Below, in pieces: positions 3,032-9,204 of a DNA stretch of 35,907 bases (the first letter of the stretch is position 1; every line of letters begins with the position of its first letter). Below the pieces are notes generated by a model, which was not told the origin of the DNA, searched no databases, and was given only the letters and a program-made list of their open reading frames with translations. Source of the stretch: a virus. The translations under genes and the position numbers were made by a program. The stretch lies in the IMG/VR virus record IMGVR_UViG_3300044993_000587, positions 1 to 35,907 of that record; one strand, given 5' to 3'.

Positions 3032-4102
3032 ATGCCAAAGAAGGTTCAGTTTCTGAGCGCCGAAGAAGAGTTCGACTTGGCATGCCGTTGGCGCGACCGC
3101 CGCGACGTCCGCGCGCGGGATCGGCTCATCATGTCATACCGCCCGTTCGCGCTGCGCGCCGCGGAGCAGGCGTCGCGGCTGGGCCGCGGCAACATCGAAG
3201 ACCTCGCGCAAGAGGCGACGCTTGCGCTTCTCGAAGCGGCGGACAAGTTCGAACCCGAGCGCGGGCATCGCTTCTCGACATACGCGCGCTTTTCCGTTCA
3301 GCAGCGGCTGAACAAGCATCACTTCGACATGTCCGGTCCGATGCGCGTCGGCACGACGCAAGCCGACAAGCGCGCGCTCTACCGCTTTCCGAAGCTGCGC
3401 GCGGAATGGGAAGCGAAGCACGGGCGCGACCTCGACGACGAAGGTCGGCAATGGATCGCGCGGCAGGCCGGGACGTCGATGGCAGTCCTGCGCGACGTCG
3501 AGGCGCATCTGCGCGGCGGGCATGTTGCGCTTGACGCGCCCGCGTTTGCCGACGGCGACGGCAGGGTTCAGGACATGATCGCGGACGAGGAGCAGGGGCC
3601 GGACGCCGCGCTGCGCCGTCTTCTGGACGACGAAAAAGCAGAGCTTTTCGGCTGGGCGCTGTCTCGGCTGCCCGAGCGCGAGCGCAAGATCATTGAGATG
3701 CGCTTCGGTGTCGGCGCGCGCGCCGGGCAGCCGGCGGAGCACCTCGAGACGATCGCCGTGCTCGAGGGCGTGTCGCGTGAACGCATCCGGCAGGTCGAGG
3801 CGCGGGCGATCGACATGCTGCGACAGATGATCGCGTCTGCGCCCCGACGCGCGGAGCGCCTGGCGCGGCCGGCGCCGGCGCCGGAGGTCCGGCACTCGAA
3901 GCTGCCGGCATTGCTGACGCCGGAAGATCTGGCGCGGGCGCGCGCGAAGGCGAGAGAGATGTCGGCAGAGCGGCACCAGGCGCGGCGCCGACATGAGGCC
4001 TGGGCGCGGAGCGCACAGATGCGGCTCATCGACTGGTGCGGAGAGCGGGGGTGGTTGCTGGCCGGGTCTATCTCCGAACGGGAGACCCGCGCCGCCGCCT
4101 GA
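3032..4102 (+). CDS. phage-encoded RpoH-like (sigma-70 family, group 3) sigma factor
   Basis: This 356-residue protein would bind host core RNA polymerase and select promoters. Region 1.2/2.1 starts at FLSAEEEFDLA (7-17) and continues through R-D-R-L-I-M-S-Y-R-P-F-A (29-40). Region 2.2 is DLAQEATLALLEAADKF (57-73), region 2.3/2.4 is about 74-97, and region 4 is about 211-266 with the helix-turn-helix SRERIRQVEARAIDML (248-263). T-T-Q-A-D-K-R-A-L-Y-R-F-P-K-L-R (108-123) sits where heat-shock sigma factors carry the RpoH box (Q-R-K-L-F-F-N-L-R). Bacterial RpoH is about 285-300 residues, so the roughly 90-residue basic C-terminal tail is extra. Start: GGGAGG at 3021-3026, 5 bases before the ATG. 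It lies inside the early phage operon, not in a heat-shock context, so it probably drives phage promoters. Confidence 0.9.
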   Translation: MPKKVQFLSAEEEFDLACRWRDRRDVRARDRLIMSYRPFALRAAEQASRLGRGNIEDLAQEATLALLEAADKFEPERGHRFSTYARFSVQQRLNKHHFDMSGPMRVGTTQADKRALYRFPKLRAEWEAKHGRDLDDEGRQWIARQAGTSMAVLRDVEAHLRGGHVALDAPAFADGDGRVQDMIADEEQGPDAALRRLLDDEKAELFGWALSRLPERERKIIEMRFGVGARAGQPAEHLETIAVLEGVSRERIRQVEARAIDMLRQMIASAPRRAERLARPAPAPEVRHSKLPALLTPEDLARARAKAREMSAERHQARRRHEAWARSAQMRLIDWCGERGWLLAGSISERETRAAA

Positions 4103-4157
4103 TGCTCTTCACCTCTGGGCGGCGTCGTTGCAGCGGCGCCGCCGGGATGACCGAAGA

Positions 4158-6716
4158 ATGAACGCAATCAACTTCGACATCATCGAATGGCCGATCGACC
4201 CCGAGGAGAGCGTGCTCCTCGGCATGGCGTTGGCCTCGCCGACGTGGCGAACGGATGAACCCGCGCTGGTCGCAGACGTAGCACGCTGGAATCCGGACGG
4301 GCTTGCGCGCGTGCAAGCGCGGGCCGCCGCGCACTGGCGCGGTCAGCCGCAATCGAGGATGCTGCGTCTCCCGAAGGGGCAGACGCGCAGGACATGCCTG
4401 CCGCCCTTCGACGCCGAGCCGACACGGCTGCGGGACGAGACGGTGGCCGAGCAGACGAGGACGATCCGGCGCTGGGCGCGGGACGCTGCGGCGTTCGCCT
4501 CGAAAGAAGCGGTAATCGATGAAGAAGAGCGCCGAGCCGGTCTGACGGCAGCAACGAAGCGGCTGGCCGAGGCCGCCGACATCGACGGCTACATCGACGC
4601 AGTGAATGACGCCGGGCGCTTGACCGCACCGGACGAGGCGCCGCGCTTGCTGATCACCGGCGCACAAGGCACAGGAAAAAGCAGCGCGCTCATTCAGGCG
4701 CTGGCGTCTCTGCGTGCCCGCGGTTTGATCGTTTGGGTGCTGGTGCCGACGCATGAGCGCGCGGAAGAGACAGTCCAGGAGTACAACGCCGCCCGCGCTC
4801 GCTTCAAAGGCGGGTTGCGGGCGATCGCCATCCGAGGCCGCACCGCGCCGTCCAGGACGACGAAGGGCGAGACGATGTGCCGCCGCGCCGACATTGTACG
4901 AAAGGCTCAGACAGAGGGCGTCGAGATCGAGACGCAGATCTGCGCGCATTGCCCGTTGCGGGCATCGTGCGAGTACTTGCAGCAGCGCGCGGACGCGCTC
5001 GACCTCGTGGCAGAGGGCGGCATCTTCGTCATGCCGCACGACTACGCCTACCTGCCGGCGCCCGTGCCGGCGCCGGACGTGATCGTCATCGACGAAGCAA
5101 TCCGAAATCCGGTGCATGTCGAGTCCGTCGATCCGGCTCTCTTGACGGCGGTGCCGCAAGATGTCCTAAACACGAAGGCCGGGCCTGCGCTGCTGGCGAC
5201 GCTGGGGGCGCTACGGCAAGCGCTGACCGCCGGCAACGAGCGGGCCCGCGCCGCCGCGCGGGCGGCGCTCACGAAGAGCGAGGTGCGCGAGGCGTCGGAT
5301 GCGCTGCTCGACGCGGCGACGCCGCCCGACGTCTCTGCGGTCGCCGGCGACGACGCGGCGATCGAGCAGGCGTTGAACGCCGGCGCGGCGACCCGGTCAT
5401 GGGCGAAGGCAGTGCGTGAGGTCGTGCGGGCGGTGCTGCGAGAGTGGGACCTGACGCCGACAGATCGCTACCCGGACGGTCGCCCGGGGTTCCGAGCGCT
5501 TTGGCTCGCAGAGAGCAAGGAGGGAACGCGGCTCTTCGTCGCACGGCTGAGGAAGCACAAGATCGGGCGGGAAAAGCCGGTGTTGTGGCTCGACGGGACC
5601 GGCGACCCGACGCTGTGCGCGCGCGTCGTTCCCGGCCTCGATCATCAACACTTTCCGGTCGATCGGCAAGGCGTCGTTCGTCAAAGCCGGGGCTACGGGT
5701 CCGGGTTCTCGCGGACGTCGTTGATCGCTCGCCGCATCGGGCGGCTCACGGCGGAGCCGATCTCCGGGGCGCTGGACCGGCGCGCAGGCGCGCGACGCCA
5801 GGCGCTGCGGGCGCTGGCAGACGCGGTGCCGGAGACATTCCTGGCGTCGTCCAAGGCGACCGTCGAGGCGCTCGTCGCTGACGGCATGCGGTCGGCGGGC
5901 GGGCACTTCGGGGCGCTGCGCGGGCTGAACCGCTTCAAGCACTGCAAGCGAGCGATCATCGTGGGCTGCGACACACCGCGCATCGAGGCTGTCGAGGCTG
6001 TTGCGCGCGGGTACTCAGCAACCGACCCGGCGCCGTTTTTCCCCGCAGGCGAATACACAAGACAGACGCGGCTGCGTCGGTTCCGCGACGGCAGCGTCTC
6101 GCCGGTCGAGGTTTTGTGCCACCCAGACCCCCTGTGCGACGCTGTGCTTTGGCAGGCGCGCGAAGCGGAGGTCATGCAGGCGCTGGACCGGGTGCGCGGG
6201 GTCTTCCAGTCCCGGCAAATGCTTATTCTAAATAGCCTGGCGCTGCCGCTTGCGATCGACGAAGAGGTCGAGGCGGCGGAGGTGCTGCGCGTCGGCGCGC
6301 GGGCGTCAGGCCGGGACGTCCGGGAGCAGGGCATGGAGCGGCTCTGGCGGGTGATCGAAGGAGGGGCAGAGGCCGTTCCGCTCACCGAGGCAGACCTGCC
6401 TCGGCTGTGGCCTGGCATCTGGGCGGGTCGGAAGCAAGCGCAGAGGTGGCTGGAAAGGCAGGGAGGCGCCGAGGCTATCGCTTCTGCTGTCGTCGGACGG
6501 AATTATTCCCCCCCCACCGTTACTATAGATTCTAGTGACGCTGGGGGGGGAATAATTCGGGCTGTAAGGTTCCGGGCAGATGGAGCGAGGGGTAGAGGGT
6601 CTCTGGCCTTGGTCCGGGACGACGTCGATCCTGCCGAGGCGCTGGCACGGGCGGTTGGGCGTCCGGTGCAGATCTTGACCGTCGGCGACACGGAACGCCT
6701 GTCAGCGGCAGGCTAA
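4158..6716 (+). CDS. large SF2-type DNA helicase with Fe-S-like cysteine cluster (phage replication)
   Basis: This is a predicted 852-residue ATP-dependent DNA helicase. Walker A GAQGTGKS is at 168-175 and Walker B DVIVIDEA at 307-314. Between them stand C241, C262, C265 and C271 (C-x20-C-x2-C-x5-C, QICAHCPLRASC), the location of the Fe-S cluster in XPD/DinG-type helicases. The C-terminal motor has GHFGALRGLNRF (motif V region) and QALDRVRGVFQSRQ at about 674 (motif VI with its arginines). The ATG at 4158 was chosen because earlier in-frame codons run back into the sigma gene. An inverted repeat at 6500-6558 lies in codons about 782-801 without breaking the frame. It is the last gene of the early operon and is followed by a terminator. 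It could alternatively be a primase-helicase, but I see no primase motifs. Confidence 0.8.
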   Translation: MNAINFDIIEWPIDPEESVLLGMALASPTWRTDEPALVADVARWNPDGLARVQARAAAHWRGQPQSRMLRLPKGQTRRTCLPPFDAEPTRLRDETVAEQTRTIRRWARDAAAFASKEAVIDEEERRAGLTAATKRLAEAADIDGYIDAVNDAGRLTAPDEAPRLLITGAQGTGKSSALIQALASLRARGLIVWVLVPTHERAEETVQEYNAARARFKGGLRAIAIRGRTAPSRTTKGETMCRRADIVRKAQTEGVEIETQICAHCPLRASCEYLQQRADALDLVAEGGIFVMPHDYAYLPAPVPAPDVIVIDEAIRNPVHVESVDPALLTAVPQDVLNTKAGPALLATLGALRQALTAGNERARAAARAALTKSEVREASDALLDAATPPDVSAVAGDDAAIEQALNAGAATRSWAKAVREVVRAVLREWDLTPTDRYPDGRPGFRALWLAESKEGTRLFVARLRKHKIGREKPVLWLDGTGDPTLCARVVPGLDHQHFPVDRQGVVRQSRGYGSGFSRTSLIARRIGRLTAEPISGALDRRAGARRQALRALADAVPETFLASSKATVEALVADGMRSAGGHFGALRGLNRFKHCKRAIIVGCDTPRIEAVEAVARGYSATDPAPFFPAGEYTRQTRLRRFRDGSVSPVEVLCHPDPLCDAVLWQAREAEVMQALDRVRGVFQSRQMLILNSLALPLAIDEEVEAAEVLRVGARASGRDVREQGMERLWRVIEGGAEAVPLTEADLPRLWPGIWAGRKQAQRWLERQGGAEAIASAVVGRNYSPPTVTIDSSDAGGGIIRAVRFRADGARGRGSLALVRDDVDPAEALARAVGRPVQILTVGDTERLSAAG
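6500..6558. repeat. long near-perfect hairpin palindrome inside the helicase gene
   Basis: GAATTATTCCCCCCCC at 6500-6515 is matched exactly by GGGGGGGGAATAATTC at 6543-6558. The stem extends one more pair (A6516-T6542), is interrupted by a single C/C mismatch (6517/6541), and continues with CGTTACTA (6518-6525) against TAGTGACG (6533-6540, one G-T wobble), leaving a 7-base loop. The total is about 25 pairs over 59 bases. The A+T-rich outer ends and the runs of 8 C and 8 G are unlike the surrounding coding sequence. It lies in frame near the 3' end of a replication gene, so a replication origin or assembly site is possible, as in phages whose origin lies within the initiator gene. Confidence 0.85.
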
Positions 6717-6833: not shown

Positions 6834-6870
6834 GACCCCGGCGCCTCATAAGCGCCGGGGTCATTTGTTT
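6834..6870. terminator. rho-independent terminator, probably bidirectional
   Basis: A perfect 11-bp stem GACCCCGGCGC/GCGCCGGGGTC (6834-6844 and 6852-6862) with a 7-base loop is followed by ATTTGTTT on the plus strand. On the minus strand the same stem is followed by TTTGGTCTCTCTT. It separates the rightward early operon (ending 6716) from the leftward restriction-modification operon (ending 6984), so it can stop both convergent transcripts. A further imperfect hairpin (about 6865-6890) lies on the restriction side. Confidence 0.85.
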
Positions 6871-6983: not shown

Positions 6984-8066
6984 CTATGAAGCGACCAACT
7001 TCTTCACCAAGTCGTTCCAGGCGACTTTAACTTTGGCAGGCACTTGCGAGCTGTCAAAGAGATCAAGTACCTCTTTCATAAAAGACGCTCTGGTTGCCGA
7101 GCCGAACAGCGCGAGGTTATTTAAAATCAGTTCTTTCAGTTCGATGAAGTTGATCTCGTGACCTTGGGTGAAGTATGTTCGCGCCACCGCTCGGGCTTCA
7201 CCATCCGGTTGCGTATTTGAGAATATGAACATATAATCCGAGATACCTTTCTGGACAATCTTGGTATTGAATGTTGAAACGACTCTCGACTTGCTAATGG
7301 GGCGCTCCGTCACCTCGATTGCTAGGATAATCTGGTCGCCATTTTTGACGGTAACATCCCCGCCTGCGCCTGAAGCCGCGTCTGACACGTTGATGTCCTG
7401 CCAATCGATGACCCATGGAAGGTTGAACGACTTCTTCACTGCGCCCAGCATCGCAACGGTCAGGAGAACCGGTATCAATCCTCCGCTTTGGATTTGGAGA
7501 AGCCCATTGATGAGCGCACCGTACTGCTCCAGGCTGAGTCGCCGGATCCGAGCGAGAGGGATGACCGACTTATCGCGAAGCAACAAGAACTGATGAAGCA
7601 GATAGATAACAAGGAGGCGAACCGTCTCTGCGTCCGCCTTTTCCATCTCGCTGATGTAGTCGAGCAGCGCGGCGTAACCCTTCTTGTCGCGAAGCCCTTC
7701 CTCTAAGGACTTCGTGAATTTAACGCTCCGACGAAAAACGGAGAGGTACGGCCCCTTCGAACAAGGGATGAGTCTGTCCTGGAGAAACGGATTGACAACC
7801 CGCTCGTCTAGGGTTCGCCCATTGAAGGCGTCACTTCCCTGGTTTGCATAGGGATGCCTGATGTTGATTTTGCGATCCAACAACCTGGCGAGGCCGCAAC
7901 CCAGAAGAACTTCCCGATAGGCTTGGGTGGATGAGTCAAAGATGGTCTTGGCTGCGGCTTGTGCGGTTTCAGAGACGTTCGGTGGAGCGCCTTCCAGATG
8001 GCGGGCCTCCGCCTCAGCAAACAGGTCTGCTAGGAGGCTCTTGGCAGCCTCATAGTCGAGTCCCAT
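6984..8066 (-). CDS. putative type II restriction endonuclease (variant PD-(D/E)XK)
   Basis: This 360-residue protein is encoded directly after the methyltransferase: the TAA stop of the methyltransferase abuts this ATG with no gap. It carries the signature S-D-A-F-N-G-R-T-L-D-E-R-V-V-N-P-F at about residues 78-94, of a kind common near the N-terminus of type II endonucleases. A likely nuclease core lies in the second half: PWVIDWQDINVSD, then G-G-D-V-T-V and I-I-L-A-I-E-V-T-E, i.e. a D...E-x-T arrangement instead of the usual E-x-K. It should cut DNA unless the partner methylase has modified the site. Its base composition is visibly more A+T-rich than the phage genes, suggesting acquisition from another genome. 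The family (perhaps SacI-like) is uncertain; the pairing with the methylase is the main argument. Confidence 0.75.
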   Translation of the reverse strand: MGLDYEAAKSLLADLFAEAEARHLEGAPPNVSETAQAAAKTIFDSSTQAYREVLLGCGLARLLDRKINIRHPYANQGSDAFNGRTLDERVVNPFLQDRLIPCSKGPYLSVFRRSVKFTKSLEEGLRDKKGYAALLDYISEMEKADAETVRLLVIYLLHQFLLLRDKSVIPLARIRRLSLEQYGALINGLLQIQSGGLIPVLLTVAMLGAVKKSFNLPWVIDWQDINVSDAASGAGGDVTVKNGDQIILAIEVTERPISKSRVVSTFNTKIVQKGISDYMFIFSNTQPDGEARAVARTYFTQGHEINFIELKELILNNLALFGSATRASFMKEVLDLFDSSQVPAKVKVAWNDLVKKLVAS

Positions 8067-8990
8067 TTAATAGTTCATCCAGAGGCACTCCTGCCTCATC
8101 TTCTTGATAGAGTGGCACTGCTTCTTCGGCGCATCGAACCTACGCCAGCCATCGAAGAGACGATCCATAGTGTCGCATCGATAGCCAGAGACTGCCACCT
8201 TGCCCTTCACGTTTCGAAGGGTTTTTGCTAGCTCTTCGTGCGCTGCCATATCCATCTCGAAGCCATAGGCCTTCGCGTCGCCGCGCGTCTCATGGAGGTA
8301 TGGCGGGTCGCAATAGAACAGCGTGTTGGGGCTGTCGTAAAGCTTAATGACATCGATGGCAGGACGGTTCTCAATTTGAACTCGAAGTAGCCGCTCCGCG
8401 ATCTCATCCAGCCCCTCGATGCCGCCGAGCCAGCGGGAGACAACGCCCGACATGCCTGCCCGGCTTGTGTTCTTGCAGTTGGCCCAGCGGCCAAGCGTAG
8501 CAGTCTGCGCGAGTCCTGTCCGAGCCTGACGAGCGCGGATGTAGAAGCGTCGCGCGCGTTCGAGGTCGCTCGCCCGAGCAGCGCTCGCAGTGACCGCGCG
8601 ATGGAACTCCTCCCTCGAGAACGGCGTCAGGGCGATCGCGCGCTTGATTTCCTCGGGGCGGTCGCGAAGGACACGGAAGAAATTGACGACATCACCATCG
8701 ATGTCGTTGTAGGTCTCGATCGGGGCCGGCTCCCTGTTGAGCAGGACCGCAGCAGACCCCGCGAACGGCTCGCAGTAGTGGTGAGTCTGAGGAAGAAGCG
8801 GAAGAAGCCAGTCGAGGTGACTGAACTTGCCGCCATACCAACCGAACGCGATGCGCCGGCGACGATTCCGCCGCTTGAGGACGAGCACGTTGTCAAAGGA
8901 CTCCGTCTCGTCCAGATAGATCGGGGACAGAGTGCGCCCGCCGCTCTGCGTCTCGGATTCCTCGCGGAGGTTCATCAGCATTTGCTTCAT
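8067..8990 (-). CDS. DNA adenine N6-methyltransferase, Dam/D12 class
   Basis: It transfers a methyl group from S-adenosylmethionine to adenine in its recognition site. Features seen: the N-terminal FGWYGGKF element typical of D12-class enzymes, motif I YCEPFAGSAAV (SAM binding), catalytic motif IV FYCDPPYL, then KGKVAVSGY and the C-terminal QECLWMNY typical of phage and bacterial Dam-like enzymes. Start at 8990 (307 residues), where AGGG stands about 6 bases upstream; a longer reading from 9056 adds 22 unconserved residues and is less likely. The gene is immediately followed by the putative endonuclease, forming a restriction-modification pair in which the methylase is made first. Alternatively it could act as an orphan phage methylase, but the direct coupling argues for a pair. 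Confidence 0.9.
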   Translation of the reverse strand: MKQMLMNLREESETQSGGRTLSPIYLDETESFDNVLVLKRRNRRRRIAFGWYGGKFSHLDWLLPLLPQTHHYCEPFAGSAAVLLNREPAPIETYNDIDGDVVNFFRVLRDRPEEIKRAIALTPFSREEFHRAVTASAARASDLERARRFYIRARQARTGLAQTATLGRWANCKNTSRAGMSGVVSRWLGGIEGLDEIAERLLRVQIENRPAIDVIKLYDSPNTLFYCDPPYLHETRGDAKAYGFEMDMAAHEELAKTLRNVKGKVAVSGYRCDTMDRLFDGWRRFDAPKKQCHSIKKMRQECLWMNY

Positions 8991-9204
8991 GGGGCACCCT
9001 GGTGGTTGAGCAGTGTCGGCTTCCGGAGGAGGTATCTTCTGGTCCAAGCGCCGCAAGCCCTGCGGCCTCCTGTCCCATCGATTCGCTGAATAGCCTACCT
9101 CGCCGTTGGCTTCGCTGCCGAGAGAAGACGTGTTTTGATGACCTAGGCCCCGGCGCCTCGGTCACAACAGTGATATGGGGTCTCGGCTCTTGGCTAGTCG
9201 TGGC
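8991..9204. other. gap between transposase and methyltransferase, no gene seen
   Basis: These 214 bases hold no convincing coding sequence; the short ORFs here are proline/arginine-rich shadows. The stretch should carry the promoter of the leftward methyltransferase-endonuclease operon, but no good -35/-10 pair stands out. The putative left end of the insertion element lies at about 9160 (GGTCACAACA). Confidence 0.4.

Follow-up and report, generated by a model that had tools for sequence, protein, structure and literature searches.

A hairpin fixed in place but free in sequence within a DinG/XPD-like helicase gene: a candidate replication element of alphaproteobacterial plasmids and phages

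The window, i.e. the whole stretch of DNA analyzed here, is a 35.9-kb viral record carrying genes for a terminase, portal protein, head protease, tape measure protein and endolysin. A helicase ORF begins at position 3993, and the gene immediately 5′ of it (3032-4102), which overlaps its 5′ end, encodes a phage sigma factor of the sigma-70 type. Just 3′ of the helicase gene, on the minus strand, lies a restriction-modification pair (6984-9056) composed of genes for a SacI-like endonuclease and a D12-class adenine methylase. The lowest G+C content of the window (0.53 at 7001-8000) falls in this region, and the pair looks like an acquired cassette. A perfect, G+C-rich hairpin located between the helicase and restriction-modification genes (6834-6862) has a terminator score on both strands and is probably a bidirectional terminator. 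Another hairpin, the subject of this analysis, lies in frame near the 3′ end of the helicase ORF. The distinguished features are:

3993-6716, plus strand: helicase ORF of 907 codons, probably starting at Met 4158; DinG/XPD-like, with an SF2 core and no primase domain of its own
6500-6515, plus strand: left arm of the outer stem, GAATTATTCCCCCCCC (sequence, folding and comparison with homologues)
6516-6518, plus strand: poorly paired step ACC, facing GCT at 6540-6542 and including a C/C mismatch; relatives have a 3x3 internal loop here
6519-6525, plus strand: left arm of the inner stem, GTTACTA
6526-6532, plus strand: loop, TAGATTC
6533-6539, plus strand: right arm of the inner stem, TAGTGAC, with one T.G apposition
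6540-6542, plus strand: poorly paired step GCT, facing ACC
6543-6558, plus strand: right arm of the outer stem, GGGGGGGGAATAATTC
6501-6563, plus strand: codons NYSPPTVTIDSSDAGGGIIRA, mostly a low-confidence linker between the helicase core and a small C-terminal domain (translation and structure model)

No Pfam match above the cut-off and no PHROG match were obtained for the helicase ORF. A structure model built from 13 sequences (mean pLDDT 65.5) contains an SF2 core that aligns lengthwise with DinG. No structural match was wider (475 residues at Z 19.6 and rmsd 6.2); for generic DEAD-box cores the scores were 18-19, with fewer residues aligned. Since the structural matches are mostly to generic SF2 cores, the label “DinG-like” denotes the widest alignment and not a unique match. 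Four cysteines of the Fe-S cluster type are present between motifs I and II in the window helicase and its near homologues, and a simple pattern describing them was matched in 24 of the 67 homologues introduced below. No primase was recognized among the window ORFs tested.

The hairpin occupies positions 6500-6558, which read GAATTATTCCCCCCCC-ACC-GTTACTA-TAGATTC-TAGTGAC-GCT-GGGGGGGGAATAATTC. The initial annotation placed it in frame in codons about 782-801, in agreement with a count from Met 4158, and described its G8/C8 runs and AT-rich ends, which indeed differ from the surrounding sequence. The layout given there also holds, namely a 17-bp outer stem (6500-6516/6542-6558), a C6517/C6541 mismatch, an 8-bp inner stem and the 7-base loop TAGATTC, except that one of the 25 pairs is a G.T apposition (T6521/G6537, in the inner stem) and 24 are Watson-Crick pairs.

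With a net score of 20, this hairpin ranks by far the highest in the whole window (the runner-up scores 12), and a search for further copies of the 59-base element in the window matched only its own site and its own reverse complement. The predicted RNA fold has an energy of −46.9 kcal/mol (z −6.5), while the DNA fold gives z values of −6.8 (plus strand) and −7.3 (minus strand); none of 200 dinucleotide shuffles reached the stability of the hairpin in the RNA and DNA folds. Because fold energy alone is a weak discriminator in these G+C-rich genes, the analysis relied on the Watson-Crick scores of the arms and on codon shuffling. Shuffling of synonymous codons with the protein kept (n = 60) yielded a score of 6.3 ± 1.0 (maximum 9) versus the observed 20, so the structure is not explained by base composition or by the sequence of the protein. 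The hairpin is real and not a product of chance, as the initial annotation had considered very likely. The residues that it encodes (about 782-802 of the model) lie mostly inside segment 768-802, where pLDDT is under 50. They are predicted to form a poorly ordered linker between the helicase core and a small C-terminal domain, and the protein would tolerate the hairpin for this reason.

Relatives of the helicase (21-30% identity) were found on alphaproteobacterial plasmids and in genomes. Searches with tblastn located them in 20 plasmid records, nearly all alphaproteobacterial, and ten aligned plasmid relatives share 24-28% identity with the window helicase. Loci were collected from plasmid records, genome contigs and whole-genome profile searches, and positions were counted from helicase motif VI; the first homologue alignment was too diverse for pattern scans. 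Two sets were used: 67 homologues under 90% identical for a strict scan, and 54 under 60% identical for score statistics. Some relatives are fused to a primase, of the Toprim_3 type in several cases and of the Prim-Pol type in one. The helicase part is joined to Prim-Pol in locus L010 (138-4388), and the same part is joined to DUF7146 and Toprim_3 in L003 and L007, i.e. primases are swapped on one helicase and one hairpin place. No close relative was found in viral contigs with either the window helicase or its four-member alignment, and a terminase search of viral contigs returned 80 loci, none of them with the helicase. The sole near relative of the phage seen is a 6.4-kb viral contig (L107), whose terminase is 95% identical to that of the window and which is too short to include the helicase.

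The homologue alignment, a check proposed in the initial annotation, runs through the hairpin with no extra length. Most relatives possess, at the same aligned place approximately 230-345 nt 3′ of helicase motif VI, a hairpin of their own, unrelated in sequence and encoding different residues. This is the opposite of the same residues being encoded by non-palindromic DNA, the pattern that had been named as an argument against a conserved DNA function. The strict scan identified 41 hairpins among the 67 homologues; two of these (L009 and L035), which have no AT-rich apex, are doubtful, and some others comprise merely 9-11 bp. Five loci at first called empty (L004, L046, L064, L069 and L083) contain imperfect hairpins once bulges or G.T pairs are permitted.

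In the set under 60% identical, a score of at least 10 was reached at the site in 24 of 54 homologues versus 3 of 423 control windows of equal size from the same genes (Fisher p ~2e-22, with no correction for phylogeny). In the codon-shuffle test, 23/54 homologues scored at least 10, against a null mean of 6.0. Among viral-contig loci with relatives of one subgroup, 9 of 15 scored at least 10 at the site. The hairpin lies at or past the gene end in three loci (L023, L034 and L048) and straddles the stop codon in a fourth (L087); therefore it is the nucleotide element that is kept, not the peptide. Several helicase clades have no hairpin, including a coherent set (L073, L078, L079, L082, L088 and L089); in these, initiation may take place elsewhere, or the helicase may have another use. 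Five loci of a clade without the in-gene hairpin (L073, L075, L076, L078 and L082) share a small perfect palindrome, TTTCGCAAA...TTTGCGAAA, approximately 30-105 nt past the stop codon, which may be this clade's own site.

Inspection of the hairpins revealed a common anatomy. The outer stem measures 11-17 bp and is free in sequence; it is followed by a poorly paired step, about 3 bases long and in many cases rich in A; the inner stem, approximately 7 bp in length, is often CCTATA/TATAGG; and the loop is AT-rich, with 5-12 bases in most cases. The window hairpin conforms to this plan (16 bp, ACC/GCT, GTTACTA/TAGTGAC and TAGATTC, respectively). Between homologues the outer arms (11-17 bases from the apex) are approximately 25% identical, which is the random level, and yet they pair at 77-100%; similarity is higher (38-46%) in the three bases nearest the apex. 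The A+T content of the apex exceeds that of its own gene in all 33 long hairpins, by 29 points on average. Compensatory changes were observed in two small sets of close relatives: a set of five sequences (L066, L067, L068, L071 and L090) shows them at two pairs of the outer stem and one of the inner stem, and a set of three (L081, L085 and L083) at three outer-stem pairs.

We propose that the hairpin is probably a cis-acting DNA element of the helicase's replication module, with the origin or its initiation hairpin as the most likely identity. An origin, a single-strand initiation hairpin and a primosome site had all been suggested from the outset; the hairpins of the homologues support these roles as a group, and sequence does not separate them. 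An origin or initiation hairpin recognized by its structure is proposed because the element is tied to a primase-helicase gene of mobile replicons, because two small plasmids showed no other initiator among the proteins examined, and because a precedent exists in pRN1. The two plasmids are pCMU02 (22.6 kb) and a Roseivivax plasmid of 17.9 kb; none of their proteins that were tested was recognized as another initiator, and neither plasmid contains a larger hairpin than the element. GC skew showed no consistent turning point at the element.

In pRN1 of Sulfolobus, replication requires a stem-loop that lies on the 3′ side of the primase-helicase gene and whose structure, but not its sequence, is conserved; one stem mutation was tolerated only with a second change restoring the symmetry of the stem (PMC4234260). 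The pRN1 protein combines an archaeo-eukaryotic primase, an SF3 helicase and a winged helix, and the stem-loop, of approximately 100 nt, lies downstream of the gene (PMC4234260). In both cases a large stem-loop accompanies the 3′ end of a gene for a primase-helicase, with structure kept and sequence free. In our case, however, the helicase is an SF2 enzyme of the DinG/XPD-like type, accompanied by a toprim primase, a Prim-Pol or no primase, and the hairpin lies mostly inside the coding sequence. A replication protein of the pRN1 type was not found: the fold and motif VI are those of SF2, and the primase domain is Toprim_3 in several relatives, Prim-Pol in one and absent from the window. As the helicase class differs, we do not claim membership of the pRN1 family. 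In the best reading, which rests on this analogy, the hairpin would work like the pRN1 stem-loop, but inside the coding sequence and with a different class of helicase.

The λ origin lies within gene O and consists of an iteron array and an AT-rich region. It resembles the proposed arrangement as a cis-acting origin within the coding sequence of its own initiator, if the hairpin is indeed an origin; the iterons and AT-rich region of λ contrast with a hairpin of free sequence. The origins of the telomere phages N15, PY54 and phiKO2 were reportedly placed inside the 3′ part of repA by Ziegelin et al. in 2005. These phages have a large Rep protein with Toprim_3, a domain also present in some of the relatives analyzed here. 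Alignment of the helicase parts with N15 and PY54 RepA (hhalign) gave nothing significant, and the best hairpin score in the N15, PY54 and phiKO2 repA genes was 8. Descent from N15/PY54 RepA is thus not supported, with no detectable homology of the helicase parts and no comparable hairpin. The ssiA and ssiB sites of RSF1010, of approximately 40 nt and one per strand, are recognized by sequence and act together with iterons and RepA/B′/C (PMC4434180, PMC4234260). The ssi hairpin has a GTG start site and a dedicated primase, RepB′. The likeness would be that the primase system of a plasmid reads a hairpin in the DNA once unwinding has occurred; here, by contrast, there is one longer hairpin inside the helicase gene, and its arm sequences are not conserved.

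By the proposed mechanism, the Rep helicase would bind the element, and the primase would be its own domain in several relatives; this phage would use a separate primase or that of the host. The AT-rich apex might melt, or the dyad might extrude as a hairpin upon unwinding; the helicase would then load onto the exposed strand and a primer would be laid near the hairpin. Recognition would occur chiefly through structure and the AT-rich apex, so that the outer arms could drift freely while still pairing. Such drifting arms could also set replicon specificity.

A different DNA-level role, as a binding site for auto-regulation, a partition site or a site for site-specific recombination/resolution, appears unlikely. 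A dyad whose AT-rich center is kept while its arms vary freely could suit such proteins, and both small plasmids encode ParA and a tyrosine recombinase. However, the place of the element follows the helicase gene and not the ParA or recombinase genes. Sites for partition or recombination usually retain the sequence that suits their protein but may lie in various places, unlike this element, whose unequal loops also bear no likeness to a crossover site.

The element might instead act in the transcript, as an mRNA structure affecting translation, mRNA stability or attenuation of rep in copy-number control. We consider this improbable, despite the high stability of the RNA fold and the association of the element with the rep gene, within whose transcript it mostly lies. 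The non-Watson-Crick stem cells (36 in all) comprise 19 G.T and 17 A.C, and since an mRNA structure should prefer G.U, this near equality, drawn from a small number of cells, favors but does not prove an element acting as DNA or as a hairpin on either strand. The hairpin was also absent from the terminator-like sites (G+C-rich stem followed by a T run), having no T tract, and no Rfam 15 family matched it above the gathering score. A position toward the end of the coding sequence or after it would moreover be odd for self-control of rep.

Template switching perfects quasi-palindromes, and in a linker predicted to be poorly ordered and weakly constrained it could create such a dyad and keep it perfect with no selected function. 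We regard this as very improbable: it fails to explain one fixed place across dozens of divergent genes, the AT-rich apex of all the long hairpins, the rarity of such scores in the control windows or the hairpins at or past the stop codon. The initial suggestion of a recently inserted in-frame mini-element, prompted by C8/G8 arms and AT-rich ends unlike their surroundings, can practically be dismissed, since the element adds no length relative to homologues, is single-copy, was not matched in searches of viral contigs and phage records, and corresponds to hairpins of unrelated sequence at one site. A palindromic element of the RPE-like type was likewise rejected, as neither extra length nor several copies per genome were observed.

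A broader proposition, which we hold to be evenly balanced, is that these alphaproteobacterial plasmids, prophages and phages form an undescribed replicon class, with a primase and a DinG/XPD-like helicase as initiator and an in-gene hairpin origin in which the shape and the AT-rich apex, not the sequence of the arms, are recognized. No paper on the origin of this helicase family was found in the open literature, a search that covered few subscription papers. Under this reading, one stretch of DNA would serve as a protein linker and a freely evolving origin together, and a DNA structural element would be seen to evolve freely within a coding sequence. If true, this would fill in the origin that is missing from a plasmid and phage family in which the replication genes carry no annotation beyond hypothetical or toprim, and would make origins findable by structure where sequence is not conserved. 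Recognition of shape by an initiator, and arm sequence as the setter of replicon compatibility, would then become testable.
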